Assembly: GCA_015956445.1 (NCBI GenBank)
Contig: WIUZ02000010.1
Location: forward strand, 1,302,001 to 1,366,000
Source: Thelephora terrestris
Taxonomy: Eukaryota; Basidiomycota; Agaricomycetes; Thelephorales; Thelephoraceae
Direction: 5' to 3'
DNA: 64,000 nt
A model generated the notes under the pieces. The model did no database searches. It worked only from the letters and a program-made list of their open reading frames with translations, and was not told the DNA's origin. A program made the translations under genes and the position numbers. Position 1 is the stretch's first letter, and each line of letters begins with the position of its first letter. Below are positions 26,632 through 58,300 of the stretch, piece after piece.

Positions 26632-29530
26632 CTAGGAGAGAGTTAACCGGCGAGGACACGACTCCGTTTGCAGAAGCTCACCAACGGATTCTGATTCACT
26701 GAAGGGGACTTTGGCTGTTTGATCAATATCCCGAAGGAGGGCCCTGCAGTTCTCTAGATCACTCGAAACCCTCAGCTTCTCGAAGATCTCGAGCGCACGC
26801 AACGCCTCGGGCGCCGCGTTTTCGATCCTGCCCTCTTGGAACCAAATCCTCGCCTGCAGGAGGGACACACGACCCAGGTGGTATACGGCATCGGCAGCGT
26901 GCGACTTGGCTTGTTCGGTATGGGAACGGGCTTCGCCGAACTCTTCTTCGCCGAGAAACAGTTCCGCCAGGGAAAAATGAGTCCAAAACAGGGAATGATG
27001 CCAGTTGAAGCGGGACGCGATTTCGAGGGCTGCCTTGAAATGGTAGATGGCCTTCTCTCTCTCGCCCTTGGAACAATAGATGTTACCAAGGACGAGATAA
27101 GATCGACAGACCTGGAATTCTTGTCCTTCACTGGGGAGGAGTGCGAGGGTGCAGACTGCCGCGTTTTCTGCGGCGTCGAGCTGTTTGTCGGAATGCAGCA
27201 ACCGAGCGAGGTGATTCAGACATCGTGCTTGTCTTTGCCTGTTACCAGACTTCTCGTATATTTCCAGGGCTTCCTTCGCTTGATCTATCCCTTCCTTGTA
27301 GAGGCCTAGAGCCCGATTTGCACCAGACAGCATAGTCAATGTGAGAGCAACACGGCTGAGAACCCCCCGCTCTTTCTGCAGCTCCAAGGTATGGCTGAGA
27401 AGCCGCTTTTGTTCCGCGTGATTTCCCGCAGATCCGGTCAACACCGCGAGCTCGAACAGGCATTCGGGCTTGGAGGGATGATCGTCCGGAAGCGCCTCGA
27501 CCTTTGGCCTCAGCACGGTGTATCGCGGTTTGTGCCAGTAGAGGTGTGTCATAAAGCGGACACAGGCACTCCATACCTCCATTGAGTTGGCATCAATGGA
27601 CGTGAACACGTCGAGCAAGTGCTCAACATTCGCATCCTCCGACGTTATCCATCGCGCCTTTTGGAACTCGCGCTTTCTCCCGGGAGTGAGATATACTGAA
27701 AGCCGGTCGAAATAACGATCCTTGGTCGCGCAAAGGAGTGGGCACGACTTCGGGTCAGTGGGACGGAGATGATCTCGGAGTGGGGCGAGCATTGTGACGA
27801 ATTCGTTGTTCCGATGCGTCAAGGAAAGGGCGCAGAGTTTATCAAAGATTTTCGATGCGTCGGGAACGGTAGGGAACAGCCAATGGAGATTCTTCTCGTT
27901 AACTCCCTGCGGGAAGAATGCAACGACTTCGAGAAGCGCCCTAGCATCAGGGCCAAGTTCTCTAAACGTTGGGGAGGCCAGAGAGAGTTCGATAGTGGCC
28001 GCGAGGCTCTTGTTGTGCTCCGTCTGAAGCACACCGGCTCGACGTTGCTGCCACTCCTTGGATAGTCGGTTATGATTCCATCTGTTTTGATGTGCGACGG
28101 TGGCTAGTAGGGTGACTGAAAGCGGATGGAAGTCGAGTTGCCTGAGGATTTTGTCGACTGAATCCGACCGTTCACCGTGTTTGTAGATCCGATAAAACGA
28201 GTCGCGCGCGGCTTCCATCGATAGCGTCGGAACTTCGAGGGCTTCGCAATCCGGAGGGATAGCGGTGATGCGGGATGTAATACAGAGACAGATGTTGCTG
28301 AATTGGCTCAATTGCTCCACCACATCGTAGATCCCTTGACCGTGGGTTCCGTGTGGGTCGAGAATAGACTCCGCGTTATCAAGAACTATGAAAATCTCCT
28401 TGGAAGATAGAAATGATCGGAGGGGAGCCAAATCTTCGGGGTTTTCGATATCGGCACCGACGACCTTCGAGAGTCGGTCGAGAAAATGGGCACGCGAAGC
28501 TGGAAACTGATCGCAACGAATGAGTCGACGGTTTTCGCCAAACCGCTCCTTGATGCGATCATGGTGGAGGACTGCCAGGGCGATAGATGTTTTCCCGACT
28601 CCGCCTGCGCCGACGAGAGCGATGGGAGTGAGGTCTTCAGCGAAGCCAACGATCTTCTCAATCAGATCACCGCGTCCGAAACACGCCCTGGGAGGCGATG
28701 GTGGCGATTCCCCGAGAGTTCTAGAATTGAATTTGAGCTACTGGACCAAATCGAGATCGGAGTCATTAACCTGGTTTGGGTCTAGACAATTGTAAGTATC
28801 CTTCCACTGGTCGACGAGATGACATAGCTGGCTCTCACCGAACGGAATTGGCTGCCAACCTCCTCCCAGATCCTCGACACATCATCGCGAATGCTGGAAA
28901 CAGCTACGTGGGTGTTTATGGCCAACTCTGTCTGAAAACGGCACAATTAGCGGCGACCAAGTGAAGACAACTGAACGGACATTGAACACGTTGAGTATCC
29001 TGTTGAGTTCAGACCTCCAACCGGCGATCTTGTCCTTATCGTTCCTCGCACGAATAAGGCGGAAAATGCGGTTGCGCCCACTCTGTAGGGCGACCGTTTT
29101 CTGAATCTCCGCAACGGTCCTGCGATCGAGTGCATCGTCCGTGAGCTATCAGTACAATGCACGACTAGTTCGACTCACATCGTCAACTGGTTTATCGCCT
29201 CACACAAGGATTGACTGAGGTCGCCCAGCCTCTTCCCACTCATTCCCCGGTCAAGTGCTTTGCAGATATCGGCGCAGTTTATCCCGAGCTCGACGTAATC
29301 CTGTTCGTTGACCATGGAGCCCTAGAGAAACGTAAGTCTGGAGCCCATCGCCGGTGGAATGGGAGCCGGCGTACCCTGATCATAGTCAACAGAACACCGA
29401 CGGAACCGAAAGCGGCTTGAGCTGGCGCGATAACAGAGAGGTTCTTCGCGAGATCCAGAGTATCGATGGCTACGTTCAGCGTCAATAGAGTGCCGTCCCG
29501 CGCCTTCGGCCGTTGGGACCCTGGAGCCAT
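26632..29530 (-). CDS. NB-ARC / TPR STAND NTPase (NLR-like)
   Basis: STAND ATPases act as ligand-triggered switches; fungal members are linked to non-self recognition and cell death, though this one's role is unknown. Five to six exons. The N-terminal helical domain starts MAPGSQRPKARDG (29530) and spans four small exons (to about 28880). NB-ARC begins CFGRGDLIEKIVGF, with Walker A GAGGVGKTS (about 28600) and Walker B IFIVLDNAES. The winged-helix part and then TPR-like helical repeats follow (KEGIDQAKEALEIYEKSG, LGNIYCSKGEREKAIYHFKAA, LAELFLGEEEFGEARSH) up to the C-terminus. About 880 residues. A micro-exon of 11 nt near 28785 is possible. I see no recognisable effector domain at the N-terminus. 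It lies between P450 copies 2 and 3 on the opposite strand. Confidence 0.9.
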
Positions 29531-34039: not shown

Positions 34040-35320
34040 TGTCAGGAACATGGTATTTTTAAACTTTTTATAACTAGCTCTTTCTTCAAATTCTTCTTAC
34101 CGTTTCTTATTGTTTGAATGCTTCACACTCCCCTTCCGTCATTCCATCATTCAAATACACAAACACGTCATCCATTCCAAACAAACCGGAACCACAAGGC
34201 TATACTACGATGCTTATATATGTCCATTCAAAAGTCAACTGTGTCTTTGGTAGGCACCCAACGCATGAGCCGTCCATCCCGGTTGAACCACTGACCTCTC
34301 CGAGCGAGGATCTCTCTGTTGAGCAGGTAGGGTATAATACTATACTACTACATGGGTACTCTAAGTCTTACCTGAAGGGGAGAGGCTTTATAGTTGCTAG
34401 TGGGTGAAAGAGAGAGAGAAGCGATTGATTGATCTATCTACACATGAGGGGTATATATATCTATCTACTCTATTGGCGTCACAACTGTATAGCGTGACTG
34501 ATGCAGGGTCCGTGCGGTGGCTTAAGGCACACGCGCGTCATACCGATCGTTTGGATCACTGATGTGATACCGCCCCTTCGGGTCGCTTATTCAGCGCTCT
34601 CCGGCATCGGCTCTCACACGAAGCGGTGGAGCCGGTTGACCCGTTGCCGGGCACAGACCTCCGGTTCAACACTCTCCGAACATGGCATCCCCATCCTCTG
34701 CACTCAACTGAATGTCTAGTTCAAGTCAATACGAAGAGACTCCTTCATAGGGACCCACCAGCCGCCCAGATGTCACTAAACTTTGGAACACTTGGTTCCA
34801 CATCTCCATCACCGGGTGACTGCTCGGCAGCGCTGTTGACGTAGTCAAAGAGAGACCCTCTGTCTCCCTCATCGGAGGCCTGGGCAGGATCCTGTACTGC
34901 AAGTCAAGTGAGGTGCCTACACTGGACCTCCAACTCAACCTGTCAGTTGGAACGGTTGACCCGGTATCGGAACCGTCTGCCCTCATCTCAACCAGACTGG
35001 TCACCATCTGACTCAACTGGACGTTGAACTACCCAGTCTCGCTAAGTTGTGGGAACACATAGCAAGAAGAGGGAGCTGAAGGGTGTGGGTGACCGGTTGT
35101 GCAGACGTCAGTAGGGTAAAGCAGGTAGAGGTAGAGAGGAGTAGGGAGAAGTAGGGAGAAGTAGGGAGGGAATAGGAAGTGGTGGTGATAGAGTAGGGTC
35201 TCAATAGACAAGCGTCGCGACGAAGAGGGTCGCGGCGGGATAGGTGGCTAAGAAAGAAGCTATCAGCGCGAGACGAGAGAACGAGAGAATACCTGAGACG
35301 AGAAGAAACTAGTAGAAGTG

Positions 35321-35538: not shown

Positions 35539-38471
35539 TGTCAGGGCCACTCTTCGCCCTTCAGGTACCAGTGCTGTTGGTGAGTCGCAACTCCAACCAA
35601 CAAGAAACAATGGGGCAAAGGGGGAACGACTTCCCTATATCCACCCAAAGTCTTCGTGGTCCAAAACGCGATGGACGAGCGTTCTCCGGTAGGTTGTCCG
35701 AATTCACAGCAGGAGTGCCGAGCCTCTATCAGGTAGATCCCTATCGTCTTCTGAGGGCAGATACAAGAGCCCGAGGATGGCGCCTCAAACTGATGACTTG
35801 ATCCAAAGAGCAGTGCGGAACTCGATGTCGTGTCCGAGCTCACTTCAAACACCGGTTAAGGATCAAGACTGAGTGAGAGAGGAGAGCGAACGGTTCAAGG
35901 AGTTACTCGATAAGCTCTTCAGTGGCCTACAGCAAATACACCGATGCTGCAAGGAGAAGAGGACTTCCCGAGATATCAAAGATGGGGAGTCCTCAGCTAC
36001 TCTACTGGTACTTATATAAGAGAGTGGCCGGGACATAGATAACCCTATCTAATAATAACTCGGAACAAAGAAGGGCCGAGAGTAAGCACGAACAGTAAGC
36101 GGCCCGGAGTATAGAATTGAAATGATAAAGGAATGACTAATGGGTCAGGGTTCGTGAGAAAATAAGAAAGGGGTCATGACGTCGTGTGGGAAAGGAATGA
36201 CAAAGGATAATATCACATGCAAGGGTGAACCAATGAGGGGACGACGCGTCAGCTCGTCCGATCGGGACAACAAAGGACCGAGTGGGGCGCGAATGTCGAA
36301 GGCGAATGTATGAGGAGTCTGGACCGGTGAAACGATGGGCCGAGCCAATGGCGAATAGGGCGCGGGCGCTGTCGAGGGTCGAATAAAGCGTAGTGCGAAC
36401 CGGCCATTGGATCCGTCAAACTCCCTTCTTCCCAAATCAACAATCCCACCAACCAACTACTCATCCATTATGCCCATGATCTCCGATCGTGTCTTCCGTG
36501 CTGAGAACAGCACCGCTACCATCGAGTCTGCGGATCCGCGTTCCGTACAGAACAAGGGTTACTTCCTTCCGAACGCCAACGTGGCGTATCCTAGTTATCG
36601 CGAGGTGCGACGTCACGTGTCGCCGTTTGCTGGCAACAACTGACATCACATCGTAGATCTTCGCGGTTGCCGCCAAAGTGGATGCTCGACAACTGGAGGC
36701 GACGATAGCCAAGCCTCCCAACTACTTGACCATAGACGACGAGCTGTGGTACCACAACTTGATCGACCACAAGTTGCAAGAGTCTATGCGCGGGGTCACG
36801 TTTGACACCGAGTTGCGTATGCCATGGGAGACTCCGGTGGCGTCATCTTTGTGGGGTCTTTTGAAGATGGGAATCTACGATCTCGGAAACGGCGAAGGAA
36901 GGTGGCCGGGGGCGACTCGTTCGCAACACTATACAGCAGCCGTTGGTCACCGTCTCTGGTTCCTTTTGAGGACCGAACAGAAAGCGGTGAGTCGGTCTGT
37001 GCATCCCGCTTGTGGGATAACACTGACAGGCTTGTAGAATGAGCGGCTGAAGCGTGAGGTGAAGGAAGCGAAAGATGATGCCCGTAGGATGTACTCGGAA
37101 GCGTTGGACATGAAGAAGACACTGCTCCTGATGAACGATACGCTTCGCGTCACGTTTGAGAGCGAGATGCTGGCGATGCGTGAAGAACACAATCGGTTGG
37201 TCGAGTCCTTGAAGGAACGGGATGACACCATTCAACGAGACCTGATCGAGGTCGACCGACGGCTCAATCGTCATAGAAGGGCTCTGAATGAGCTCGACAC
37301 CAAGGTTGGTGCGACTTCTCCTGGTCTTTGTCCAAGAGAGCTCATGCCATTCCTAGGTCGATACGTTGGACGACGCTTTGCCATTGTTGGGCGCTCGAGT
37401 CGAATCGATGAGCGAGCGGTTGTGTCACTGCCGTACTCGTTCGGTGGCTGCGGTCCGCGACGAGTCCGAGGACGAGTCGATACCTGATCGGATGGCTTCT
37501 CCCATAGGTGGGATGTCGGTTGACATATTTGGCTTGTCCACTGACATCTCTTCTTAGCTTCCGATGGGTCGTACCGCACACCTGCGCATACTGATGGCGG
37601 GGAGGAGGTCGTTCGCGAGACGTCTGAGGAGACGGCCGTGAATCCGGTTAGCAGTTCTCCCGAGTTGGAGTACGCGGGGGAGAACGAAGTGGCTGTTCCG
37701 ATTCCGCCTCCGTCGATCTCGCCGGTGCGTGGGCAACGTTCTATCCGTGCTCGTTGTTGGGTTCCTTATCGCGGGGCACTTCGTCCAGCGCACCGCATGC
37801 GTCCCAGTAATCCCAACGTTGTCCGCCAGGGTGGAGACATCGAATCCACCGTCCTATTCCGATGCGACAATGCTACAGTGTCGCGTGGATCGCGGCGAGC
37901 TGATTCCGATAGAGTCCGTCGACGTGAACGGCTTAACCGACCTTACGCTCTTGTCGGTCCAGCGTGCAGCGGAAGCCGTTCGCCTGGTGGCTCAACTGAC
38001 CGAGAGGGTGGAGGGTTGGTCAGTCCAGAGGACTCTGGATCAGACTATGGTCGATTCAGCGAGGAACCGCCTTCGCGCCGAGGTTCAGTTGGCCGTCGCT
38101 CATCGTCTGGAGGAAGCTCGGGTCGTCGAGATGGTCGACGAGGAAGTCGACGAGAATGCCTCGGAGGGGACGGAGGAGGAGGTTGCCAGTGCTGAGGAGT
38201 ACTGGCAGACCAGGTCTTGACGACCAGGGTTTGTACGCCTTAGTCCTCGCCCATAGAGTCCGGGCGGATTCAACTTCGTCGGTTTGATAGCCTCGTGTCT
38301 TCGCTGTGCGCCTTGTGTAATATCATCAGTGTCCTTGTCTGTGTTCCTTGATGACGTGTGAGTCGTGATAAGGGAAATGATAAGATAAGAAAGGGGTATA
38401 GGTAAGGAAAGTGGGCGCAAGTTGGGTGTAAAAAATGGTTCAAAAAGGGAATAAAATTCAGCGCGCTGACA
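35539..38471 (+). mobile_element. element G: 2,933-bp TG/CA element carrying a D-family gene
   Basis: Starts TGTCAGGGCCACTCT and ends CAGCGCGCTGACA. It is flanked by a perfect 5-bp duplication AACTT (35534-35538 and 38472-38476). The ends form the 5-bp inverted pair TGTCA...TGACA. The 5' 150 bp share blocks with the 5' end of element I (TGTCAGGGCCACTCT, ACCAGTGC, CCGGTAGGTTGTCCGA). It carries one spliced gene on plus and no reverse transcriptase, integrase or transposase that I can see. The ends and duplication fit insertion by a retroviral-type integrase. Confidence 0.85.
36470..38220 (+). CDS. D-family element protein (copy in element G)
   Basis: Unrecognised family. Five or six exons with good splice signals. 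N-terminal domain: PSYRE then VDARQLEATI, then TIDDELWYHNLIDHKLQES MRG-type residues, LWGLLKMGIYD; then a coiled coil (NERLKREVKEAKDD, EEHNRLVESLKERDDTI); then a Cys/His spot (CHCRTR) and an acidic, Pro-rich region with LEYAGEN. The paralogue in element I matches block by block, intron for intron. The last exon has a possible hydrophobic stretch in the alternative frame and ends in an acidic run (EYWQTRS, stop 38220); if the last intron is not spliced the stop is 38195. The start could also be an in-frame Met at 36407. It does not resemble gag, pol or a transposase. Confidence 0.7.
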
Positions 38472-39593
38472 AACTTCAGAGGGAAAGGGGGAACTGCACT
38501 TCATTATTCGAACCAGGACTGTCTGCTGACACTTATATAGTAGGTAGAGAGAGTGGTTGAAGGTAGAACACGAAGAGGGGAGAACAAAACATAACAAGGC
38601 AAATGTCGCGAGAGAGCGGGAATCGTGAAGTTTGTGAAGGGCGTAGGGAGGTCATACAAAAACGAAGAGCAGAACAGAGGGGAGAACAAGAATGCGCGAA
38701 GGACGAACAAGACGGCGGGAGGAGTGGGGGGGAGAAATGAAGGTATCGTGGGAAACTACGGGACAATGAAATGGAGGATCGAACCGAGAAGTCAAGGCGG
38801 GATCGGAGTGGAACAGGCGGGAGGCAGGGAACACGGCGAGACAGTCGAGACGGCGATGACATGCAACAAGAAGGCGGGGGGCACGTGTTCCAGAGTCGGG
38901 ACGGCGGACCGATGCGGGGGAATCCGAACAATGATGAACAAGGGGGGCGAGGCGAGTCAAGTCAGGTGGGAGAACGGAAGTGATCGGGTGGCACGTGGGA
39001 TCGGGGAGGCTGGACTCGGAGCGTGGACTTAGAGGATTTTGTCGAAGTCAAGAGGAGTGGGAGGTCGCGAGACTATCGGGAGACTGGCGATGGTCGACAA
39101 GGGGTCGTGTCGGAGGAGGGGGCTTCGCGCTACGTCACGACGTATGGGTGGATAGCTGGGGAGGGTGCTGGAGTTGCTAGGGGTATAGTACGAGTCGGAC
39201 GGCCAGCGAAACGGAGGCAGGTCAACGTGGGTAAGGATAAGCCAATGGTGCCATGCGATGATCGTTGCGGCATCGGGAGCGTTTACAATGCTGCCCCTTA
39301 ATCACCAGACGTACCTTGGCAGACCTCAGAGCATCTTTGGCCCGGAGCCCATTCAGCTACTTTTTCCCCATGACCCATGGACCGTACGGTGTGACAAAAT
39401 CCCATGACCTGTCAGGAACATGGTATTTTTAAACTTTTATAACACGCTCTTTCTTTGAACTCTTCTTACCCTTTCTTATGTTTGAATGCTTCACATTCCT
39501 TATCCTTCACACCAATCATTCAAAAACACACACACGCGCGTACTATTCCCAGCGAATCCACGACGAGCTATATACGGTGCTATCATCGTCCCA

Positions 39594-41332
39594 TCAGAAA
39601 TCGACTCTATCTACGGCAGGCCTAAAGGTCATCAACTGTCCATCCCGGAGATCGTAGTGCTGGCCCCTCCTCGCAAGGACCTCCCCGAACATGGCGTCAC
39701 CATCTTCGGCACTCAGCTGAACGACTAGTTCAAGCTGATAAGAAGAGATGCCTTTGAGCGGACCGATCAGCCTCCCAGATGTCACTGAACTGCTGAACAC
39801 CTGGTCCCACATCTCCATCACCGGGTGACTGCTCGACAGCACTATCGACGCAGTCGGCAAGCGACCCTCCGTCTCCCTCATCGGACCCCTGAGTGGGATC
39901 CTGTTTTGCGAGGCGAAGCTGGTGTCGGAGTTGGATCTCGGACTCGACCTGTCGGTAAGGACGGTGGACCCAATATCGGAATCCTCGCTCCTCACCTCGA
40001 CCAGACTGGTCACCATCCAACTCGACTGGTCGAGGGTAAGGATTAGCCGACGCGGTCATACGATGGGCGGGACGGCGTCAAGAGCGTTTGCAACGTTGCC
40101 CCTTAGTCACCGGACGTACCTTGGCGACCCTCGGAGCATCTTCAGCTTGGTCAACCGCCATGACCTCGTCCTCGATCTTCACCAACTGATGGATCGGCTG
40201 CAAGACGCAGCGCCCACAGTTCTCTTTGTCGGAGGCGGCCAGAGTGGAAGCCGGAGCCGGAGTCGGAACGGGAACCGCGTTCTCTATCGGAGGCGTCGCA
40301 TAGGACGACAGGTTAGGAGATGGGTGTACCACCTCGTCGGCGTACTCCAACTCGAACGGAACATCGGCTGTCCCCTGACCAACCAATTTGGGACCCTCCT
40401 TACAGTTGCAGGTCTTGTCCTGCAAGGACTCAACCTGCGCCGTCAACACCGCCACCACGTTCTCAAGTTCTTCCGTCTAGAAGAAGTGTCAGTTTCCCTC
40501 ATTTCGTTTTCGAGATGAGAAAAGCTACCTTTTCATCCCTCCTGACCAACGCCCCCTTAATGTTGTTGTCTCGAACCTTCAACCCGGCGATCAACTCCTG
40601 ATGGTTGGCGACCATTGCCTCCAACGCCTCGTTCATTCCCTGTTGGAAGGCTGCCAAGGTCTCTTTCATCTGAAGACCCTCCGCTGACAGACGAAGGACG
40701 TCTGCCTTTGCCTCTTTCACCTCCCGCTCCAATCGTTCAACCTAGGCAGTTTGATTAGTCGAGAGTCATACTCGAATATTCAAACAAGAGAACTTACCCA
40801 GCTCTCCCCCTCCCGAACGAGCGACCACAAGAGACTAGTGGAAGCGGTGGCATGGCGGACAGCCCGAGGAACGGTCGCTCCGTGCTCCAACAGGTCCTGA
40901 TCGTAGATTCCCCTCTGAAGGGTGTACCAAAGCTCCTTCTTGATCGGATGCTCCAGCTCCCCGAACCTACCCCTCATCTGGAAGGCCACCTTCTCAGCGA
41001 TTATCGTACGGACCCAGAGCTCATCGTCCCAGGTCAACCCCATCAAATGAGGGATTGTCTCCCTGAGACGTTCGGCGTCCACCTCCGTGACGACCTCTAA
41101 GATCTAGAAGCCGTTAGTTTGACATCAACGCCGAAAGAACGTGCCTCTACCTAGAGGAAGGCGTTAGTGCAAACACATAAGCTCTAGGTCTCCCCCATAC
41201 CTGGTCATCAGTGGTATAGGGAGTCCCTGCCGCACAGGCATAGGTCTTGCGAGCAGCGGCACAACGGTCAATACGGGAGATGGTGGAGATGCTGTTGGCG
41301 ACTTTGTAGGTGTGGTTTTTTGGGAAAGACAT
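39594..41332 (-). CDS. D-family element protein (copy in element I)
   Basis: Unrecognised family, paralogue of the gene in element G. Start MSFPKNHTYKVAN (41332). Exons: TPYTTDDQ then ILEVVTEVDAERLRETIPHL, TWDDELWVRTIIAEKVAFQ, GIYDQDLLEHG; then coiled coil VERLEREVKEAKADVLRL and IAGLKVRDNNIKG; then TEELENVVAVLTAQVESLQDK and a CNCKEG spot; then FELEYADE and a Pro/Ala-rich stretch; then, through a GTACGT..CGACCAG intron, the last exon SSWMVTSLVEVR to VDRVDF (stop 39594). About 470 residues. The promoter side has TATAAG (about 41401-41408, minus) and a CCAAT box, and resembles the G promoter. No catalytic motif seen. Confidence 0.7.
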
Positions 41333-42333
41333 GTTGTGGTAAGATGATGGGGAAGTTGCTGGTGTTGCTGATCAAGGATGGCTCCAAGAAGACGTCCTTC
41401 TTATAGCCTAGATCAGTGATCCTTCACGTGACCTACCTCGACGAACCTCATTGGTCCGGGTCACATCAACTTCCGCCCCTGTACCATTATCGTTGGCTTA
41501 CTACATCAAGCTGACACCTCGGCCCGCGGGACGGCCTTGGAAGAACTTCGTTCCGGAACGCCTAGAACGCGCGCGCACTAAAAATAGGTCTCAAGACCCT
41601 GATGACCCCTTTATGACATCACGAACCCCTTTTACGAACCCCCCCATGACTTTACGATTACGATCAACCCTGGACCCTGATCACACACGTGGACAGTCAC
41701 ATCACAGTCTCCTAACTGGAGGAAGTAATCGCCGTTATTCGGAAGGAGTGCCTTAGACTCCTTTTGTTTAGCTCAGCAAATGTGGAGTAGCCGTTAGCGT
41801 GAAACGCCGGTGAATCTGTAATCCCTCATGTCCCATGAGTCTAGGCCCGACCTCCTCATGTTCGGACGTACGTTGAGGTTGCCACTAGTCCGTAATGCTG
41901 TTACCGCCTACAGACAACAAGGGATGATGCATGGTCCCTTATCTCGGAGCCGCTCAAAAATTGCACGAAGCAATGAGAGGTTTCCACCTGACCCTTGGGT
42001 GTGATCCCCAGGTACGAACTTTCATGACCCCATGCCCCTTTTTCTTTCAGGACTAGTGTTATCTTTACCCCTATGTTTCATGCAGACATTTCTTATCTTT
42101 TATGCAATCCTTCACACGCTAGTAAGGCCCTTTGTCTTTTATTCTCCCACGCGACACCTTTGTTCGCTTCCCTTACTTAGCATTCTCACACTCCTTATCT
42201 CCCTTTGTTCTGGACTTGATAAGGGTATATTAGGGTATTGATGTCATGGCCACTCCTTTAGTATAAGTAGCAACTGTGGCTGTATTGTAGTACCTTAGTT
42301 TTGTTACCTCAGGAAATCCTCTGCCCTTCTCAG
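41333..42333. other. 5' part of element I
   Basis: This is the promoter and leader of the element I gene; it shares blocks with 36140-36480 of element G (read on the opposite strand), including aggggttcgtga-like and CCAATGAGG sequences. No separate gene seen. Confidence 0.5.
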
Positions 42334-42604
42334 TGTCACGAACGCGTGACATAGTAGCCAAGATCATACAAGTAATTCAAGACATTGGTCTTATTCATAG
42401 TAGTAATAATACAAAGGTGGCCAACAAAAACTACAAACTCAAACAAGAACAAACGGGTCCACGTCACAAGCGCAGTCCTGAGCAAACGGACAGCGATGAG
42501 CAAAGTGATGAGGGTTGTGAACGCTTTGAGGACAATATGAGTACACTTGCGTCACCGGATCCTGCCAGCACTCCCTGCACCCCAACACATCATGAAACAA
42601 ACTA

Positions 42605-43333
42605 TCATACATCTCCCGCTTCACGTCCGTCAACGCCGCGCTCACCAATGCGAACCCATAGCGGTCCTGGAGACCCGCTACCTCCACCTTCAACTTCATC
42701 CAAACCTGTTGTGACTTGTCGGAGGGACGACAACGTTGACCAGTACGAGTCATCGGACTTTTGCGACTCTTCTTCTGGGTCCTCTCCACCAACTGACGAC
42801 TCCGAACAGGACTCCAAGGAGGGGACTGAGGAAGAGGGACTCCCTGGTCCTGGAGACGGCGGAGGGACGACGGGGGAGTGAGAAGCTGCATCGGTGCAGT
42901 ATGCTCCGTGGCATCGATGGCCGAAGTACCGGAGGAGAGACTCCTGGAAAGGTTTCCAATGTTCCAAGGCGAAGTGAGAGAAGTCTTCATTAAGACTGTT
43001 AACAACAACATACATGACATCCATCCTCTTCTCCAACTTCAAGATCCTGTCCTCCCTCTCTTGTTCCATCGCATCCTGCATAGGGGTGACTCCAGGAGCC
43101 CACCTTTGAGTCCGGTTGGGGTCTTCATACCCAGCTTGTTCCCAGAACTCGGCAGGAGTGTTGTGAGCGGTCAAGAAGTCCACCACCACCTGATTGTCAC
43201 AAGCGATGTTGGCGGGGGAGTCGTACAAATGTTGCTCCACGTCAAGAGGAGTGTCCGTCTCAAAGGACGGGGAGAAGTCGTAGGGGGTGGCGGCGGCGTT
43301 GAGCAAGGCGTTGTTGGCAACGTAGGCAGACAT
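42605..43333 (-). CDS. element protein A, outer copy (intact)
   Basis: 242 residues, single exon, unrecognised. Start MSAYVANNALLNAAATP, downstream of a TATATAA (43428-43434 on minus). It has a conserved N-terminal region (SFETDTPLDVEQHLYDSP, VVVDFLTAHNTPAEFWEQAG), a short coiled segment (EREDRILKLEKRMDVMYVVV), FALEHWKPFQESLLRYFGH, a Cys/His cluster (HRCHGAYC) and a Ser/Pro/Glu-rich tail. The copy in the inner element aligns throughout but has a premature stop. No enzyme or DNA-binding fold is evident; a small Zn site is possible. Confidence 0.7.
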   Translation of the reverse strand: MSAYVANNALLNAAATPYDFSPSFETDTPLDVEQHLYDSPANIACDNQVVVDFLTAHNTPAEFWEQAGYEDPNRTQRWAPGVTPMQDAMEQEREDRILKLEKRMDVMYVVVNSLNEDFSHFALEHWKPFQESLLRYFGHRCHGAYCTDAASHSPVVPPPSPGPGSPSSSVPSLESCSESSVGGEDPEEESQKSDDSYWSTLSSLRQVTTGLDEVEGGGSGSPGPLWVRIGERGVDGREAGDV

Positions 43334-43540
43334 AGTAGTAAACGGTATGATTGAGGAGAGGGGAGTAGTGGTAATTGTGGGAGAGGAAAAGAGGCGATGG
43401 GAAGGAAAGACCAATAATCCCCCTGGATTATATACGACTGACTCAATAGGATGCCAAAAGAGGAAGACAAAGAATCATCATCCATTTAAACCCCGATTAG
43501 GATAAATGAACCCTCAGCCCCAATCGCGATCCCATCAAAT

Positions 43541-43680
43541 CCTGAGAAATCCCCATCAATCATGAGAAATCCCCATCTGTCTTCTATTGCTACCTTGAAA
43601 CGAGGGAAATCCCCACCGATCATGGGAAATCCCCATTCATCTTCTATTACCACCATGAAACGTGAGAAATCCCCATTGTA
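43541..43680. repeat. 60-bp tandem repeat with five GAAATCCCC motifs in the A/B promoter
   Basis: Repeat units begin at 43541, 43601 and 43661 (the third is partial). Each full unit carries two GAAATCCCC(A/C) motifs; cores are at 43546, 43566, 43606, 43626 and 43666. The equivalent promoter in the inner element has only two (ATGGGGATTTCTC at about 45185 and 45205, inverted orientation). Likely a protein-binding array upstream of gene B, gene A or both. Confidence 0.8.
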
Positions 43681-43840
43681 CTCCTAATGACTCATTCGCT
43701 ATTATCTCCTCATTTCATATTCATTCGTCGCTCTAGAAGTTCCACCTTTCTGACTCATCCACCCTACCCTAAACTACGCACGGACCATGTTGATCCCTGT
43801 TTGACTTGTTGTAAAATAATGACTCCTGTAGAGGATTGGG

Positions 43841-43849
43841 TATATAAGG
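43841..43849 (+). promoter_or_regulatory. TATA box of gene B, outer element
   Basis: TATATAAGG lies about 150 bp before the gene B ATG, followed by a pyrimidine-rich leader and a likely 5'-UTR intron (GTAAGC near 43924 to AG near 43977). The inner copy has the same arrangement on minus (TATATAAG at 45014-45021). Confidence 0.65.
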
Positions 43850-44243
43850 AAGAGCGTTCGCTCCTTCTTTCCCCCATTCTCAATCTCTTCTGTACCTCTC
43901 TACCCCAAACCTCAATAAACAAAGTAAGCTGAGGAATCCTCCTCGTGTCTTACTTCCTTCTGACTCTTTCAAGCAGGAATCCTCCTGCTAGTGTATGTTC
44001 AGAGCTCCTAACCCATTCCCCTCTACAAGTCCCGTTCAACATCCGGTCATACCCGACGCCAGAAGATCTGTCTGGGAGTATAAACTCATCAGAAGTCTTC
44101 AAGTAAACCGAACTGCCGGTTTACTCACTCACTTCCCCTACTATCGCCCCTTCGCCGCACTCGATTCAGGAGTCACCACTCCTCCTTTCTTATTAGGAGC
44201 AGATCACCAGTTCCTTTGGAACTTGTCAGGGTTGTGGGCCTGC

Positions 44244-44867
44244 TTACTGTTTGTGGGGCGCTAGAGGATTAGCGGATGGGTGTGGAGTATCGGGTCGGAC
44301 TCGGAAGGGAGTTCTGGGTGTAGAAACGAGAGGAGGAGGGATATCAAGGGAGAGTGGTGACTCTGTCTGATAAGGATGGACCGGCGAGTGGTAGTCTTGG
44401 CAGAATTGATTTAATTGCTGCACAAATGGTTCGAAGTCTTGGTCGCTAAGGCGTTCGAAATTGACAAGATATTCTATAACCGAATAAGGTAGTTCAGTTG
44501 GTATTTCCCACCAAAGAATGATGATAGCAGGGGAATGGGTGTGAACGTTAGTTGTGAGGTGGATGCGTGGAGTGGGAAAATAAAAGGCCGGACTTATACT
44601 GAAGTAGACTGTTGCTAGGACACTTTCAGTGAAGTCAGAGTTCCAAAGGAACTGATGATCGGCGCCCAATAGGAAGGGTGGAGTGATGACTCCGGCGTCG
44701 AGAGCTGCAAAGGGTCGATAGTAAGGGAAATGGGTGAGTAAACCGGCGGTTCGGTTTACTTGGAGACTTCTGATGAGTTTATACTCCCAGATAGACCTCC
44801 TGGCGTCGGGGATAGTGGGTCGCTGAACTGGACTTGTAGAAGGGAAAGGATCGGGGGCGCTGAACAT
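44244..44867 (-). CDS. element protein B, inner copy (intact)
   Basis: 207 residues, one coding exon with a probable 5'-UTR intron, unrecognised. Start MFSAPDPFPSTSPVQ. Conserved core: IPDARRSIWEYKLIRSLQVN, LLTHFPYYRPFAAL, FLLGADHQFLWN, then a region with Phe/Tyr-rich PAFYFPTPRIHLTTNV and IIILWWEIPTELPYSVIEYL, then FERLSDQDFEPFVQQLNQFC and a Pro/Ser/Thr-rich tail. No signal peptide or catalytic motif is clear. The outer copy is very similar with several conservative changes (for example DSGVTTPP versus DAGVITPP), which suggests past selection on protein sequence. Confidence 0.7.
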   Translation of the reverse strand: MFSAPDPFPSTSPVQRPTIPDARRSIWEYKLIRSLQVNRTAGLLTHFPYYRPFAALDAGVITPPFLLGADHQFLWNSDFTESVLATVYFSISPAFYFPTPRIHLTTNVHTHSPAIIILWWEIPTELPYSVIEYLVNFERLSDQDFEPFVQQLNQFCQDYHSPVHPYQTESPLSLDIPPPLVSTPRTPFRVRPDTPHPSANPLAPHKQ

Positions 44868-45427
44868 ACACTGGCAGGAGAATTCCTGCTAGAATGAGTC
44901 AGAAGGGGTAAGACGTGAGGAGGATTCCTCGGCTTACTTTGTTTATTCAGGTTGTGGGTAGAGGAGTACAGAAGAGATTGAGAATGGGGAAAAGGAAGGA
45001 GCGGACGCTCTCCCTTATATACCCAGTCCTCTACAGGAGTCATAATTCTACGTCGAACCAAACAGGGTCAACATGGTCTGTGCGTACTTTAGGGTAGGGT
45101 AGATGAGTCGGAACAGCAGGACTTAGGGTGATTGGTAAGGAGTATGAATTAGGGGAACAATAGCGAAAGAGTCATTAAAAGCCTGATGGGGATTTCTCTT
45201 GATCGATGGGGATTTCTCTGAATTTGATGGGATCGTGATTGGGGCTGAGGGTTCGTTTATCCTAATCGGGGTTTAAATGGATAGTGAGTCTTTGTCTTCC
45301 TCTTTTGGTATCTTATTGAGTCAGTCGTATATAACCCAGGAGATTATTGGTCTTTTTCTCTCATCGCCTCTTTTCCCCTTCCCACAATCACCACTACTAC
45401 TCTTCCCTCTCAAACATCCTTACCACT

Positions 45428-46171
45428 ATGTCTGCCTTCGTTGCCAACAACGCCATGCTCAACGCTGCCGCTACCCCTTTCGACTTTACCCCGTCTTTCG
45501 AGACGAATGCTCCCTACGACGTGGAGCAACACTTGTACGACTCCCCTGCCAACATCGCTCATGACAACCGGGTTGCCGTCGACTTCCTTACCGCCCACAA
45601 TGCTTCCGCCGAGTTCTGGGAACAAGCTGGATATGAAGACCCCAGGTCTTCTGGACCTCGTGTTGCACCTGCTCATCCTGGGGCTGTGCTTCTGTTGGAT
45701 GCGATGGAGAGGGAGCGGGAGGATCGAATTGCGAAGTTGGAGAAGCACGTGGATCTCATGTACGTCATCATGAACAGTTTAAATGATGACTTCTCTCACT
45801 TTGCTTTGGAACATTGGGGACCCTTCCAGGCATCTCTCTTCTGATATTTCGGACACCAATGTCATGGGGCTTATTGCACCGACCCCCCTTGCAAGTCCCC
45901 AGTCATCCCTTCGCCACCGCCAGGATCAGGGTGTTCCTCTCCCTCCATCCCCTCCCTGGAGTCCTGCCCCAGTTCGCCAGATGGTGGAGCAGACCCAGAA
46001 GAAGAAGACCCGCAAGAATCCGATGGCTCGTTCTGGTCAACGCTGTCGTCCCTCCGACAAGTCACGTCAGGTTCGGATGAAGTTGAAAGTGGAAGTGGCG
46101 GGTCTCCAAGACCGGTATGGGTTTGCATTAGTGAGCCAGGCCTTGTCAGACGTGAAGTGAGAGATGCATGA
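45428..46171 (+). pseudogene. element gene A, inner copy, with premature stop
   Basis: Start MSAFVANNAMLNAAATP; TATATAA at 45328-45334. It reads 138 codons to TGA at 45842-45844, where the outer copy has Arg. After the stop the same frame continues to align with the outer protein (YFGH, CHGAYC, WSTLSSLRQVT) up to a stop at 46171, giving 248 codons against 243. So a single nonsense change breaks an otherwise open gene. A functional truncated form is possible but less likely. Confidence 0.75.
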
Positions 46172-46867
46172 GAGTTTGTTCCATGATGTATTGGGGTGCA
46201 GGGAATGTTGGTTGGATCCAGTGACTCGGGTGTATTCGTACTGTCCTCAGAGTGTGCATAACCCTCACCATTTTGCTCATCGTTGTCCGTTTGCACAGGA
46301 CTGTGCTTGCGATGTAGATCCTTTCGTCTTGGTTTGAGTTTGTAATAATTACTAGCCCCTCTTGTACTTTTAATACTGCCAATAAGACCAATGTCTTGAA
46401 TTATTTGTGTGATCTTGGCTACTATGTCACGTGTTTGTGACAGAACTCAGACATTACTGAGAGTGTCCTAGCGACTGTCTACTTCAGTATAAGTCCCGCC
46501 TTCTACTTCCCCAACCCTCGTATTCACCTTACCACTAACGTCCACACCCACTCCCCTGCTATTATCGTCTTGTGGTGGGAAATCCCAACTGAACTACCTT
46601 ATTCCGTTTTAGAATACCTCGTGAACTTTGAACGCCTTAGCGATCACGACTTCGACCCATTTATTCAGCAATTAAGTCAGTTCTGCCAAGACTACCACTC
46701 GCCGTTCCATCCTTACCAATCCGAGTCACCACTCTCGCTTGATATCCCCCCTCCTCTCACTTCTACTCCTGGTACCCCTTTCAACGCTCAACCAGACACC
46801 CCCTACCCGTCCTCTAATCCTCTAGCGCCCCTTAAACAGTAAGCAGGCCCACAACCCTGACACTCAG

Positions 46868-47250
46868 CCCAGTTGCAGTTAAGGACAAGTCAGAGTTTCT
46901 TGTTTGATCCAAGACATCCCCATCTGCTCTCCCTCCCGCTCTGCACGTCAACTGCGCCTCATAACTATAGAACCTCAGCGTTCAACTTATAGAACACCTC
47001 GAGCGTCCAGTCGATCACCTGGTGGAGTCATCAACCCTGCTGTGGAGATAAACCCTTGCGTGTTAAACCGAACGAAGTACGGTTTAGGTTGGGTTTCTCT
47101 TTAGGGTTTCGACCTGACTTGTAGTGACCTCGGACAACCTACCGGAAGAATAGAGACGTGATCGTTCTCTCACAAGCTAGTTGGACTAGTGAGTACTCTG
47201 CGGAGTCAGCTCAGTGCACTGGTAGTTGTTGGGGTAGAGTGGCCCTGACA
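46868..47250. other. 5' terminal part of element I
   Basis: This non-coding stretch continues element I to its 5' terminus (CCCTGACA at 47250). Shared blocks with the start of element G identify it. It includes ttaaaccgaacgaagtacggttta, an inverted repeat near 47060-47085. Confidence 0.5.
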
Positions 47251-48352: not shown

Positions 48353-49473
48353 TTAAGTAGAAAACACGGCGCTGGTCACCCAACCCTGCACGGCCTCGAG
48401 TTTTTCGTAGCCCCGAGAACCGCTCAACCCCCCGACGACGACAATGAGGTGCGCGAAACCCACCGCCAACATGAATGTCAGCACTGAATGTACCGAGAAC
48501 ATTTTAGAACTCTTCCGCTCCCGGTCCAACGGCATCGGACTGGAAGCACACACAACAGACTTCTGAATCTTGGAACCAGAGGCCTTGATCTCGTCGAAGA
48601 GGTCTTTGTGGAGTAAATAAGCCCGAGTCGTCTCATCCAGAAGTGCCCCTGTTGAAAAGGATCAATCCACCCATTCAACCCGACATGATTACGTGTGTTG
48701 AATCGACCGAATTGGAAACCCGAACCTTTCAGCTCGATGTCATTCCCGACGCCAGCGTCGATTCCATTCTTAAACCATTCTTTGATCCTCTTGACCTCCC
48801 CCATATTTGCAAGGGCAGGATCGCTCTGCCCTTCGCTGCCCATCACGCCGAAGTTGTAGAACCGCGTTCCTTGGTCGTTCGTGAGGCCGTATGCCTTGCG
48901 GATGTTCCCTTTCATTATTTGGCCACCGCTGAGATCACCCATGTACCGGATGTAGGAATGGGCTAAGAGTCTCCTAGGATCTTCTTTGATGATACGGGTC
49001 AGGCGGGAGATGTACGCTCGGAACGCGGGCGGGGGTGATAATAGCAAGGCTTGGTTGGCCTGGTGGGACTTCCATGACCTGTCGTCGTCTGGAACCCCCA
49101 ACAAGAAGGAAATATCAGATGAGAGGGCGGAGCCGCGAGCGAGCAGAGCAGGGTTGTACGTTGGAGACAGGACGCTGTCGTAGGCGTTCGCAGCTAGACC
49201 TGCTTCGAGCGCCCTAATCCACAGATGCCGAACGGTCAAAAACAAAAACGAAAAACATGCGCAAAGTGTTGACAAAAAACGGACGTACTTGTAAATGTGC
49301 CACAACATCATGAGGTACCAGATGTAATCCTCGCGGTCGAGTTCGCCCTTGGTGAGGTATGTGGCAGTCTCGCTCTTGCTGATCTCGTCGTGCATCTTGA
49401 TCGTTCCCGCCCTTAGTATCGAGCTAGCGGGTTGGGTCATGTCGACCTTGGGTTCGGTGTGGGTGGCGGGCAT
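48353..49473 (-). CDS. HMX1: heme oxygenase, ER tail-anchored
   Basis: Heme oxygenase cleaves haem to biliverdin, iron and CO; fungal Hmx1 recycles iron at the ER. The start is MPATHTEPKVDM at 49473. The proximal haem ligand is probably His28 in GTIKMHDEISKSE. The family signature SYIRYMGDLSGGQ, with the distal-helix Gly residues, is encoded near 48950. Two introns: GTACGT.. after LMMLWHIYK, and another (GTAATC..CAACAG) that shifts to the frame ALLDETTRAYLLHKDLFDE. The C-terminus has one membrane segment (SVLTFMLAVGFAHLIVVVGG) and ends SAVFST, as expected for a tail anchor. Reading only the longest open frame would miss this tail. Confidence 0.93.
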
Positions 49474-51137
49474 GGTGGGGCGGGTGAAGGAAGGGACGTC
49501 GGATAGCCTGACAGGCGAGAGATCGGCTCTTATAAGCAGGTGTCACTTACTCAGTGATGTACCAATCAAGGTAAGCGAGTCTCAGTCATTTCGTAATGGG
49601 AACAGAGGCACAGGCCGGAAGGGTATACCTCTCCTGGAAATCAGCGAAAACGGATCCAAATTCCCGCGAGAAAGTGGGTGGCTTTCATGCTATACCGTGT
49701 GCACCATGTGGGTGTAAACGGTTATCTGAGGAACCGCGGACGTTCGTGCGACGATCAGAGATAGAAATACGCCTTATAGGACACCCAGTCTTATGCGAGT
49801 CACCCAGTGAGCAGCATCCATTAGACAAAAAACCCAATTGCTACCAGGGTGCCAATAGTTGAGAGTTAAGCTTATTGGCGAAATTTCGGACATTTTTTAG
49901 CTTGTACATCATCTGAGTTACTATATACATCGTTACGGGCTCCTATATTCATCCTTACCACCAGCACGGATGAGATCATGTCGCCAGCACAATCCCTCTA
50001 TATACCCTTCGAGGAAGCTAGCATCCACTATGAATGCGCAGCTCTCGTGCGCGCGATTGCATACTATGACACAGCACACCTACTGCTTTTGATTTCCACG
50101 AGGTGTGTGCTGGGAGCATGCTAGCAGTCGAATAGGGAACATACAACAACGGTCCATCTGCCTCCCCAACGGAGAGGACCCCAGTCTGGGTCTGAGGATG
50201 TTCAATCTCTGAACCTTTGGCCCCTAAAACTGCAGATCCAGAAACGCCGACTTGAGGCCCAGATGACGGTTGGCTTCCTGACAAGTTTCATCTTTCATTC
50301 AGGGTATTCGACGTTTAGGCAGCTTCGAACGCCACTGACAGGTCACTCTATGACGATATCGCAGGTAAGAGATCATCGACGTAAGGTTTCGTTGACTGAC
50401 GAGAAATCGCACCCTGTAGGTCATTTGCTGATGATAATCACGCTTCTCAGAACACCAGGATGACCGTGAAACTGGTTGCACGACCAACTTCGACTCAATT
50501 TGGGTGGGCATGGGAGGTGGTGAACATGCGAGGGGCAATGAAGTTTGCACAACTTGCCATCGCGATAACGTATCAAGGTGGCCAAGATAACGGCGCAGAA
50601 GAATATCCCCAGGGAGGTTCGACGACTCAAAGTCAAAACAAATCAGATAATCAAGTATGACGGCGATAAGTTTTGGTCTTGAACTGCTGAGTTACTTACT
50701 TGCAAGTGAACAACACAACACGCCTGAACTGCCTTGGCGTTTCGGATCCCGGCGTTACTTATCCTGTTATCAGATGGACTCCGATTGGAAACAGGCTACA
50801 GAGCCACCAGGCCGGGGTAATCTCCGTCATCCACCCGCCAGGTCCAAGGCGCCTGTGGCGGTGGGGCTCTAATTATTACCAGCCGCGCGTTCAGCGTCCG
50901 TTCACTCATTTGTACAAGACCGACCGCCACGAGCTTCAGATCGAAGCACATGGGACGGATATATTCGAACACCTAACGATGGCTACAAACGAATGGGCAT
51001 GGATCCATGCAAGTGCACCGAGATCGAAGTAACGTCCGTAATGGTACAATGGCCCAACAAAGGATAGCTCAAGCAACCTCTGCGTAGGTAAAGAGCGTCT
51101 GTGTAATTCGCTTGAGCATCCCACTTTAAAACCGCGA
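49474..51137. other. intergenic, HMX1 promoter side, no gene assigned
   Basis: The first few hundred bases are the HMX1 promoter. Small frames on plus at 50657-51032 overlap in two frames and look like chance. A minus stretch at about 51080-50940 (LLELSFVGPLYHYGRYF) follows a possible splice acceptor and might be a further exon of the CCCH gene. Confidence 0.35.
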
Positions 51138-55319: not shown

Positions 55320-58300
55320 TTAGATTTTCATCGCCGCTTCCCTCTCAACCACCAGTACGGCTTCCTTCAGCCTTCTATACTGTTTCCTTGTCACTTGAAT
55401 CTCATCCTCAACGGAATACTGCTTAGTATGACGTGTGAAGTGCTCCAAACCCCGACCCAACTCCTCGATAACTTGATCCAACCGCTCCACGAGGTCTTCC
55501 CGGTGCTTCTCCATCCCGGTTCCGCAAAAGTCCTGTTGAATTGAGACCCCCATCTCGTCGAAGGCATCGTCAGAAAGAACCTCCCACTCCGACCAAACGA
55601 GAAGGAAATACGACTTGAGAATCTCGAGGTCTCCAAGGCTTCGGACATGATTAATAATGCCCGGATTGGTTCCCTGCGATCGTCCTAAGCACCGAGGCGG
55701 GAGATATGGTCGTTCCTTGAACCACGCCCAAACACCAATGGGAATGTGTGCTCGCCAGTGATCCGAAAGAGCAATCTGTAACGTTGCATCAACAACACTC
55801 CAGCCCACCTCCTCCGTATGTGGGACCGCCAGAACTGCCGTTGCCCACCTCGCGACCAGTGGAGCCCGCCTGATTACCACCAACCCCCGCATGACTTTCT
55901 GGTCAGTTCGAGGTAAGTCAAATGTTGGGAGTGATATGTGGGGTGATATCAGGACAATAACTCGATCCAGAGAGGGGGAGCTTGATCCTTCAAATAGCGC
56001 AGCGATGTATGATTTAGTTTGATGCCACATGGACTTTCGGGGGCAAGAGGTCCTGAGAGCACGTAAGGTTACATCAAACACCCCTTGTTGCCCGTCCCGC
56101 TCCAGAGAGACCGCGAAGGGAAGGATCGTGCTGATGGCCTTGCGCTTCAAGAAGATAGCATCAGGATCCGCAGCTTCAATCATGGTTTCGAGAGTCTGAG
56201 TTATGAGGCTTGAAACTGGCTCCATCTGTGCGCTGGAGTCTTGGTGAGATATGTGAATACTCATATAATGTCAACCCACCTTGCTTCCAAAGTTGTGATG
56301 TTCGAAACTTGACAACCCAGGTCAATAGCGGTGATCATCAGGCAGTTTGCAACAGCGGACCGCGGAGGCGGAGGATTCAGAGACAGGGAGTGGAGTGCAA
56401 AGCGAAGGATCCAACGAGGTACCTTCCGATACTTTGTCTGTTGGTGTTCTACCTGGGCAGCCTCGACCATGTGCTGCGCAAATGTGATGTACTCCTCAGC
56501 GGATGGTCTGTAGCCACCCCACCGGACGTTGCGGGGGTCCCAAGATTGGTTGGCCAGGCGGTGGATCTTGGTCATTGCATGATAGAATGGCAGACCCCTG
56601 AAATCGAAGTTGACGGGAAAGACCCTGTTGTAACGTCGGATGATATCTGCCAGTACACTCGGAGTTTGGTACTCGGCCGAGAGACGACGAAGGGAGTGGA
56701 GGAGACACCCGGCAGACACACCCGCGAGCCGCTCTTTCCCTCGTATGGTTGACATCTTTCCACCACCAATCTTGACACAACTAATCAGAACATTCAAACA
56801 GGGATCTGCAATGAGGGTGCAGTCGAAGGAGGTGAGCTCTGTCTTAGTCGCGAGATGTTCAACAGCCGACAGGCGGATGTCGTCTTCCAGAGATGTCTGA
56901 AGTGTCCATAAGATGCACCGTAAGTCCGATATAGCTATTTTTTTGTCGGACTCTTGCTCCGGAGCAGCAGGCGTCCCGTGTAGGTGGCGGTGCACCCTAC
57001 GAACAAGACGGTAGGCCCTCATGGTAAGAGTGAACAATTTTCTGACCGCAGCTCGTCCAAGATTGGAGATATCAAAGGCAAATGCGAAAGGGGCCCTGAA
57101 AACAAAGCTCCATAAGAAGTGTAAGACTCTGGACCACCAGGGGCGATAATTCCCTCTCCTCGTGATGACGGCCGTGATGTTTCCGAAGGAAGAGGGAATG
57201 GAATAAATTGTTGCCGAGACTTTGGGCCACAGGTAACGAAGGGCGAGAGAGCCAGGCGTCTGATATGGGCAGTTTTCAAATGCCGCTCCAGCGATGATTA
57301 TGGAAAGGTAGAAGAAGGCGCCAAACGATGTGGTACAAAGTACGACCGATGCGACAATGGTCGAGATTTCCCAAAGGTACCTGGAAATTGCACAACTGGA
57401 AAGCAACAGAGCAGCCTGCAGCATCAACGGCAACGACTCCATTACGTAGTTGAAATACCACGCGACGATGCCGTCGAGCTTCCGCTGTCGGTTCTGACCG
57501 CGTTCGGCGGCAGATCCTCGCATGTCAGACGAATCATAACGGTTCAGCCATTGCTTGCCAAGCATTGCGAGGAAGGCGGCGATGAGGGAGGTAGCAAGGC
57601 TTGCATATAAGATGGCTTGCACGTGGACCGTCACACTGGAAGGTCCATCCCATTGCGGGAGAGTAGGAACATCACTTCCGAAGGTGGTGTTGTCGATCTT
57701 GTAAATGAGGACACGGAGGAGGGCGGCGGTTTCGTCACCCGAGTCTGGTTGAAGTTGAGAGTTGACCTCTATGATGAACGCGGTGGTGACAGCCGAGAAC
57801 AGACCAGCCTGTCAAGGTCTGATCAGCACGCACTCGTCAAAATGTCACGAGGAACTCACGAAGATGAGAGTCGTGTCCAAATCCCCCGCGTGTTTCTTGA
57901 GGAAGTTCTTGTCGTACTCTTCAGCCACTTTGCGGTATTTATCGTAGAATCGAGTTTGATGATCCTCTTGAATTGACGGTGCGTCTTGTTTTTGGCTGCG
58001 CTACGTTATCAACAAGATTTCGAGCGAAAGTGTAAGAACCTTACCCGACCGCTTCTGGTTGGGTGCTACGTCTTAGTTCTATACCCTCATCCTGCTCTTG
58101 TCTTTCTTCGGGCCCTTGGCTGTGATTGAAGGTCAGGTATCAAAGCACGCCGATGACATGGAAAATACCCATACACCAATGGAGACCCCTGCATGGGGCT
58201 TTGTGGTCCGTCAGGGTTCCGGAAATTCTTTGACCTATAGATTGGGCGTCCAGTTACCCAGGATATACGGGTGCAGTGGAACCTACCTCTCTCGTTTTGT

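Follow-up and report, generated by a model that had tools for sequence, protein, structure and literature searches.

The 64,000-bp stretch of Thelephora terrestris DNA analyzed here (the window; contig WIUZ02000010.1, positions 1,302,001 to 1,366,000) contains, at positions 44224–46442 on the plus strand, a complete 2,219-bp insertion with TG..CA ends, which we call E22. It starts with TGTCAGGG, finishes with GTGACA, and is bordered on either side by GAACT, a perfect duplication of the target site (left, 44219–44223; right, 46443–46447), its junctions reading GAACT-TGTCAGGGTTGTGGG...ACGTGTTTGTGACA-GAACT. Inside lie two divergent genes, A and B, with TATATAA boxes facing opposite ways at 45015–45021 (minus strand, A side, predicted transcription start at 44985) and 45328–45334 (plus strand, B side). 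An initial annotation made from the sequence alone had described the insertion, its duplication and this divergent arrangement, all of which we saw again.

E22 sits in a nest of insertions. It lies within a minus-strand copy of its own family (42334–46862, CTCAG duplication on both sides), which in turn splits E33, a giant protein-coding long terminal repeat (LTR) of 3.3 kb on the minus strand (39410–47250) whose flanks, TGACC and TGAAT, are without a clean duplication. The initial annotation had reported an empty site for the insertion elsewhere in the window; that sequence is real, and it belongs to E22 itself, namely to the minus-strand copy just described. A further giant protein-coding LTR, the 2,933-bp F3, occupies 35539–38471 on the plus strand, with the duplication AACTT and the exons of its gene between about 36470 and 38217. 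On either side of the F3 insertion, at 34040–35023 and 39225–39345, are remnants of an older E33-like copy (76–80%). When the window was scanned for TGTCA...TGACA pairs 300–12,000 bp apart with equal flanking 5-mers, five pairs were found, whereas shifted controls gave 1.15 on average. Three of the five correspond to the elements described here, and the other two are probably due to chance.

Gene A (44247–44867, minus strand) encodes 207 amino acids and is open in the window copy, its stop codon (44244–44246) lying 20 bp within the 5′ end of E22. Gene B, on the plus strand, comprises two overlapping frames, B1 (45428–45841) and B2 (45783–46334), the second with a basic stretch and a Cys/His cluster. 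The window copy carries stop codons in gene B, such that B1 ends early and B2 is broken, whereas the gene is open in most of the 24 full-length copies considered below, B1 reaching about 245 and B2 184 amino acids in most of the other 23. Between the two genes, GGGGATTTC is repeated with a phase of about 20 bp, with two units in the window copy (45188–45216, plus strand) and two to five in each of the 24 copies. The A-side TATATAA is kept in all 24 copies, and in 23 of them it is followed 35–36 nt on by CCCCA, as it is in F3.

Copies of E22 and selection on their genes

Searching the T. terrestris genome (40.6 Mb, 60 contigs) yielded at least 24 full-length copies of E22 among the best 40 of 400 candidates, one of which aligns over positions 1–2217 of 2219. 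The 5′ end has 320 matches genome-wide with up to three mismatches and the 3′ end 280 with up to two, compared with none for either reversed-pattern control; the lists of positions cover 100 of the 320 and 100 of the 280. As the initial annotation had proposed for a mobile unit, other copies with constant boundaries and distinct duplications do exist: a perfect 5-bp duplication borders 22 of the 24 full-length copies and differs between sites, with one of the 22 (L017) scored after counting its two mutated last bases within the element. Of the remaining two, L019 matches at four of five bases and L010 has no duplication; a separately checked copy at C11 has the clean duplication CCTCC. Further, in the eight closest pairs (93–97% identical) the proportion of nonsynonymous differences (pN) is only 0.013–0.018, with a ratio to synonymous differences (pN/pS) of 0.04–0.13. 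Because pN is so low, the insertions look young, with little decay after insertion.

E22 is nested with E33 and F3 at several loci. In five of 54 left flanks (L009, L035, L053, L054, and L060), an E33 oriented like the E22 has its 3′ end just 12–133 bp ahead of the E22 start. Two copies, L074 (C6:158919) and L075 (C12:2831128), have each received a second E22 at an identical position (about 623) and with matching orientation, reflecting either a hot spot for insertion or one event common to both. An autonomous parent deduced from an end-to-end spacing of 5.55–5.68 kb was rejected, as three of the four cases are E22 with E33 inserted at three different positions.

Selection was measured on the copies with long open frames (23 of 24 for A, 21 of 24 for B1, and 23 of 24 for B2), those with short frames being dropped. 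Gene A has a ratio of nonsynonymous to synonymous substitution rates (dN/dS) of 0.09, and the parts of gene B on either side of the frame overlap have 0.12 (B1, ahead of it) and 0.09 (B2, past it); when the reading of gene A is shifted by one or two bases, the ratio is 1.9 and 2.7. Values of about 0.1 show strong purifying selection on A and on the non-overlapping parts of B, and the pN/pS of the closest pairs is similarly low. Within the overlap (45783–46168), synonymous change is low in both frames, dropping from roughly 0.3–0.5 to less than 0.1 over much of it, which would raise dN/dS there (0.45 for B1 and 0.35 for B2, with parts up to 0.78 and 0.83). This suggests that both frames are in use, likely as dual coding, for example via alternative splicing. 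Two annotated proteins of E33, P0033 and P0041, join two overlapping end frames comparable to B1 and B2.

Using a distant homologue of B as the query, we found at least 240 matches in the genome (among the best 150 of 382 candidates). Sixty listed matches span at least 188 of 208 residues, and 53 of these are without a stop codon, a proportion biased toward intact copies since the matches were ranked by score and counted by hand. The initial annotation could not place A or B in any known family, and neither could we: no Pfam family matched above the cut-off, no integrase was found in either, and a comparison with PDB structures gave nothing convincing, the best hit being B to chain 8pjy_A (E 0.001) with no stretch passing alone. 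Database searches returned nine relatives of A (six from "jgi" and one from T. terrestris) and 16 of B (eight from "jgi" and six from T. terrestris), and some E22 genes appear in annotations as hypothetical proteins of the host. For A, AlphaFold gave a model too poor to use, with a mean predicted local distance difference test score (pLDDT) of 36.8.

F3 and E33 are LTRs of complete retrotransposons

F3 is present in at least 36 full-length copies, including the one in the window, to which they are 91–100% identical (among the best 40 of 302 candidates). At C5, two copies in direct repeat surround 5.87 kb, with AACTG outside the pair; in this comparison of complete LTR sequences, which covers C5 only, they differ from each other at one of 2,932 bases and from the window F3 at 82 and 83. 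The internal region between them has matches above the Pfam cut-off to a zinc knuckle, protease, reverse transcriptase, RNase H, an integrase zinc domain, a Tf2-type SH3 domain and a chromodomain, and matches just under it to gag and the integrase core, with the gag-pol domains and the F3 gene on opposite strands. Because a direct pair surrounds a chromovirus internal region and shares an outer duplication, F3 is an LTR, and its gene lies in U3, antisense to gag-pol. The bases that follow the 5′ LTR hold an 11-nt complement to LTR sequence 35 nt past the TATA box, and the internal region is that of a self-priming Ty3/Gypsy chromovirus. Two further F3 elements with pol, at C23 (outer duplication ATGTC) and C12 (GTTTT), have pols 99–100% identical and the same primer junction as C5, with zero and one mismatch, respectively. 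Among the 36 listed copies there is only one direct pair, and three copies were seen in pol-bearing elements.

The pol search, which covered the best 37 of 165 candidates, also revealed a second group of eight pols that are 62–63% identical to the F3 type. In the two of these eight elements that were checked, the pol stop codon is followed by a purine tract and then by E33, and at the one E33 5′ junction checked the primer site adjoins the LTR, with a 12-nt complement to LTR sequence 35–36 nt past the TATA box, where the likely E33 start had been worked out from the example of F3. Since the pol stop and purine tract directly precede it, E33 is the LTR of this second group. At C23:1034843–1047953, two E33-type pols of like orientation are separated by 9.31 kb, and an E33 junction lies in between, which suggests a tandem LTR-internal-LTR-internal array.

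Both LTRs carry a spliced gene, and the genes are homologs of each other, with 37% over 239 columns and a probability of 99.4%. In E33, dN/dS is 0.10 and 0.06 for two exons (seven copies), 0.22 for the first end frame (six of the seven) and 0.69 for the second (five of the seven). The E33 LTR gene is thus shown to be under purifying selection, and given the value of 0.69, selection on the second end frame is either weak or masked by the overlap. Pfam gave nothing above its cut-off for the E33 LTR proteins and pieces of F3. The model of the E33 protein P0033 (mean pLDDT 46.9) contains a long coiled-coil-like helix at residues 126–242 and, within the spliced end frame, a weak beta-alpha-beta-beta-alpha domain at 396–472. 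In T. terrestris, relatives of the E33 LTR protein form 71 protein clusters with 257 member sequences, all of them hypothetical proteins. As LTR status is shown for both F3 and E33, a class of giant protein-coding LTRs, 2.9–3.3 kb long with a gene in U3 antisense to gag-pol, is real.

Is E22 itself an LTR?

We hypothesize, with a probability of roughly 0.7, that E22 is a giant protein-coding LTR, or a unit derived from one, of the self-priming Ty3/Gypsy chromovirus clan in T. terrestris. E22, E33 and F3 alike start with TGTCAGGG, end with TGACA and generate 5-bp duplications. Several observations weigh against this hypothesis. What E22 has in common with E33 and F3 is limited to the outermost 8 bases on one side and TGACA on the opposite side, and TG..CA ends with 5-bp duplications are common to many integrases. 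E33 and F3 are without gene A, the GGGGATTTC array is absent from the seven E33 and one F3 examined, and comparing the E22 genes with the LTR gene of E33 and F3 revealed no significant homology, with a best E of 0.006 and a probability of 6%. At C59:690674–693439, a diverged Gypsy pol (31% identical to that of F3, with one stop codon) ends about 480 bp upstream of an E22 (from about C59:693916) in the same orientation, opposite to the layout in F3 and E33. Lastly, an arrangement of E22, internal region and E22 was not found in a partial but varied set of tests.

These tests addressed different parts of such an element. No shared flank abuts an E22 end in register, whether on the left (54 flanks from 51 distinct copies) or on the right (24 flanks). 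Motifs that the internal regions of F3 and E33 have in common occur in none of these flanks (0 of 54 and 0 of 24), although F3 and E33 as controls match by construction, as the motifs were derived from them. The primer junction predicted for E22 had no match when no mismatch was allowed and with a start site that is predicted rather than mapped; for comparison, a pattern copied from the F3 junction and searched with three mismatches was found in three places. Among the best 37 of 165 pol candidates, compared with the partial lists of E22 positions, none of the F3 or E33 type has E22 as its flanking LTR. A purine tract upstream of the E22 5′ end (nine purines, two places) was set aside as it is on the wrong side, gag-pol running the opposite way by the example of F3 and E33. 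A pyrimidine tract past the 3′ end gave 12 entries at nine distinct places, compared with about 2.7 expected by our own estimate. Five of the nine are explained without an internal region, lying in E22 (C6, C12:2831119, and C4) or E33 (C12:2535180) or having an ordinary duplication (C11), which leaves one at C59 and three on C60 without such an explanation; no polypurine junction is repeated among the nine, and the flank common to two of the nine is an E22 site.

The initial annotation had suggested that E22 is either a giant protein-coding solo LTR or cargo moved in trans, to be told apart by a direct pair around gag-pol. Giant coding LTRs are now shown for F3 and E33 and likely for E22, and a direct pair was found for F3 at C5; for E22 none was found in the flanks tested, and both of the suggested options still stand. 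Under the first, to which we assign somewhat less than an even chance, the copies of E22 would be plain solo LTRs, their parent chromovirus having no two-LTR form left in this strain or assembly. The ends and duplication of E22 are LTR-like, as its promoter layout may be, and in F3 too only three of the 36 listed copies were seen in pol-bearing elements, with one direct pair listed, the other 33 copies not having been checked singly. However, copies that are young, intact and under selection imply a recent source, and if complete elements were as frequent among the copies as they are in F3, one would expect to see some for E22.

Alternatively, E22 may never have had, or may no longer need, a two-LTR form. 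It would then be an LTR turned into a free-living mobile gene unit, which retains the ends and promoter of an LTR together with two genes under selection, lacks an internal region, and reaches hundreds of sites in trans via the machinery of its giant-LTR relatives, E33 and F3. This possibility, which we regard as somewhat less likely than the first, would account for 320 E22 5′ ends with no two-LTR form in the tests made, for insertions that look young by their pN and pN/pS values, and for the clean duplication of the C11 copy. On the other side, no route is known by which one LTR could be copied via RNA in the absence of a second, the primer test used a predicted start and zero mismatches, the pol search covered the best 37 of 165 candidates, and the lists of end positions covered 100 of 320 and 100 of 280 places.

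Outside the LTR hypothesis, E22 might belong to a hitherto undescribed type of autonomous DNA transposon in which A, B or both serve as the transposase. This would be consistent with the selection on both genes, with their lack of a Pfam family above the cut-off or a convincing PDB match, and with the 5-bp duplications; mobility at the DNA level also requires no LTR pair. We consider this unlikely: the terminal inverted match is no longer than 5 bp, no transposase motif was recognized, the ends, and probably the promoter layout, match those of proven LTRs, and no internal-deletion derivatives were noticed in the partial lists of end positions, which were not searched systematically. A dispersed host gene family or segmental duplication without mobility, as intact, selected genes annotated in part as host proteins might suggest, has a negligible probability, being already contradicted by the duplications, distinct at 22 of 24 sites, together with the constant ends and self-nesting.

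If E22 is a giant LTR or derives from one, a chromovirus integrase would insert it, producing the TG..CA ends and 5-bp duplication. By analogy with F3 and E33, the promoter at 45021 would give rise to an RNA carrying gene A in the gag-pol sense, and the divergent gene B would lie within U3. The LTR genes might encode accessory proteins. In Arabidopsis, transposable elements encode VANC proteins that have tandem repeats as targets (PMC5735166). By a speculative parallel, the basic, Cys/His-rich part of B may attach to the GGGGATTTC array that separates the promoters and could in this way protect the element from being silenced, much as VANC acts on VANDAL; the parallel is drawn from the array and the composition of B, not from any sequence relation. 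Since every lone LTR would form a complete transcription unit, such a gene need not fall silent when a solo LTR arises.

Known systems, significance and other features of the window

In Tf1 and Tj1, the primer site is complementary to the RNA's own 5′ end, i.e., the elements are self-priming (PMC4600332). F3 resembles them in having protease, reverse transcriptase, RNase H, integrase and chromodomain together with a self-complementary primer site, while F3 and E33 differ in their LTRs of 2.9–3.3 kb with a gene antisense to gag-pol. To our knowledge, the LTRs of Tf1 and Tj1 contain no gene. A protein-coding gene inside an LTR is known from mouse mammary tumor virus, a retrovirus whose superantigen gene (sag) runs in the gag-pol sense, whereas the LTR gene here is antisense, spliced, and part of a fungal chromovirus. 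Plant LTRs can carry RNA: 5S RNA in Cassandra elements, which are terminal-repeat retrotransposons in miniature, and functional ribozymes in retrozymes, a likeness limited by the fact that the product is RNA, not protein, and that these are non-autonomous plant elements. LTR retrotransposons of bdelloid rotifers have extra genes beyond gag-pol, with ORF3 (open reading frame 3) beside gag and pol and LTRs of 159–551 bp (PMC5408684), while the extra gene described here is within the LTR. A limited literature search brought to our notice no description of protein-coding giant LTRs in fungi, or of giant LTRs with genes antisense to gag-pol, and the excerpts of PMC9674265, PMC8290104 and PMC3601003 contain nothing on protein-coding giant LTRs. 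Chromoviruses and self-priming are already known; such giant gene-carrying LTRs appear to be the new part.

Two kinds of DNA transposon were considered and rejected as models for E22. Ginger2/TDD elements have TGTNR ends like those of Gypsy, and TDD-4/5 make 5-bp duplications (PMC2836005). However, Ginger2 has inverted repeats of about 50–180 bp and an integrase gene (PMC2836005), whereas the inverted match in E22 is 5 bp only and neither A nor B contains an integrase. Plavaka and KDZ transposase domains are abundant genome-wide, with 132 and 125 matches, respectively. As movers of E22 they were rejected, since its duplications are 5 bp and those of Plavaka are 2–3 bp and, for the two KDZ groups compared, those of Kyakuja 7 bp and of Zisupton 8 bp (PMC12730594).

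These elements also have consequences for how LTRs are viewed and counted. LTRs or LTR-like units of 2.2–3.3 kb carry genes kept by selection, as shown in E22 and E33, and a solitary LTR can therefore continue to function as a gene. The usual view is that LTRs are control sequences and solo LTRs dead remnants. LTR genes far outnumber gag-pol, with 320 E22 ends and 36 listed F3 copies compared with three F3-type and eight E33-type pols (among the best 37 of 165). Gene counts are also affected, as relatives of the E33 LTR protein sit among the T. terrestris hypothetical proteins. This raises the question of whether an LTR can become an independent mobile unit.

A Pfam scan of ten ORFs in the window found host-type domains in seven, nothing in three, and no integrase. 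Elsewhere in the window are SEN1-like helicase pieces (3477–7014), a minus-strand protein with an NB-ARC/STAND-like region (below the cut-off) and TPR (26635–28737), a heme oxygenase domain (48481–49542), and a DUF6535 protein (56264–57811).

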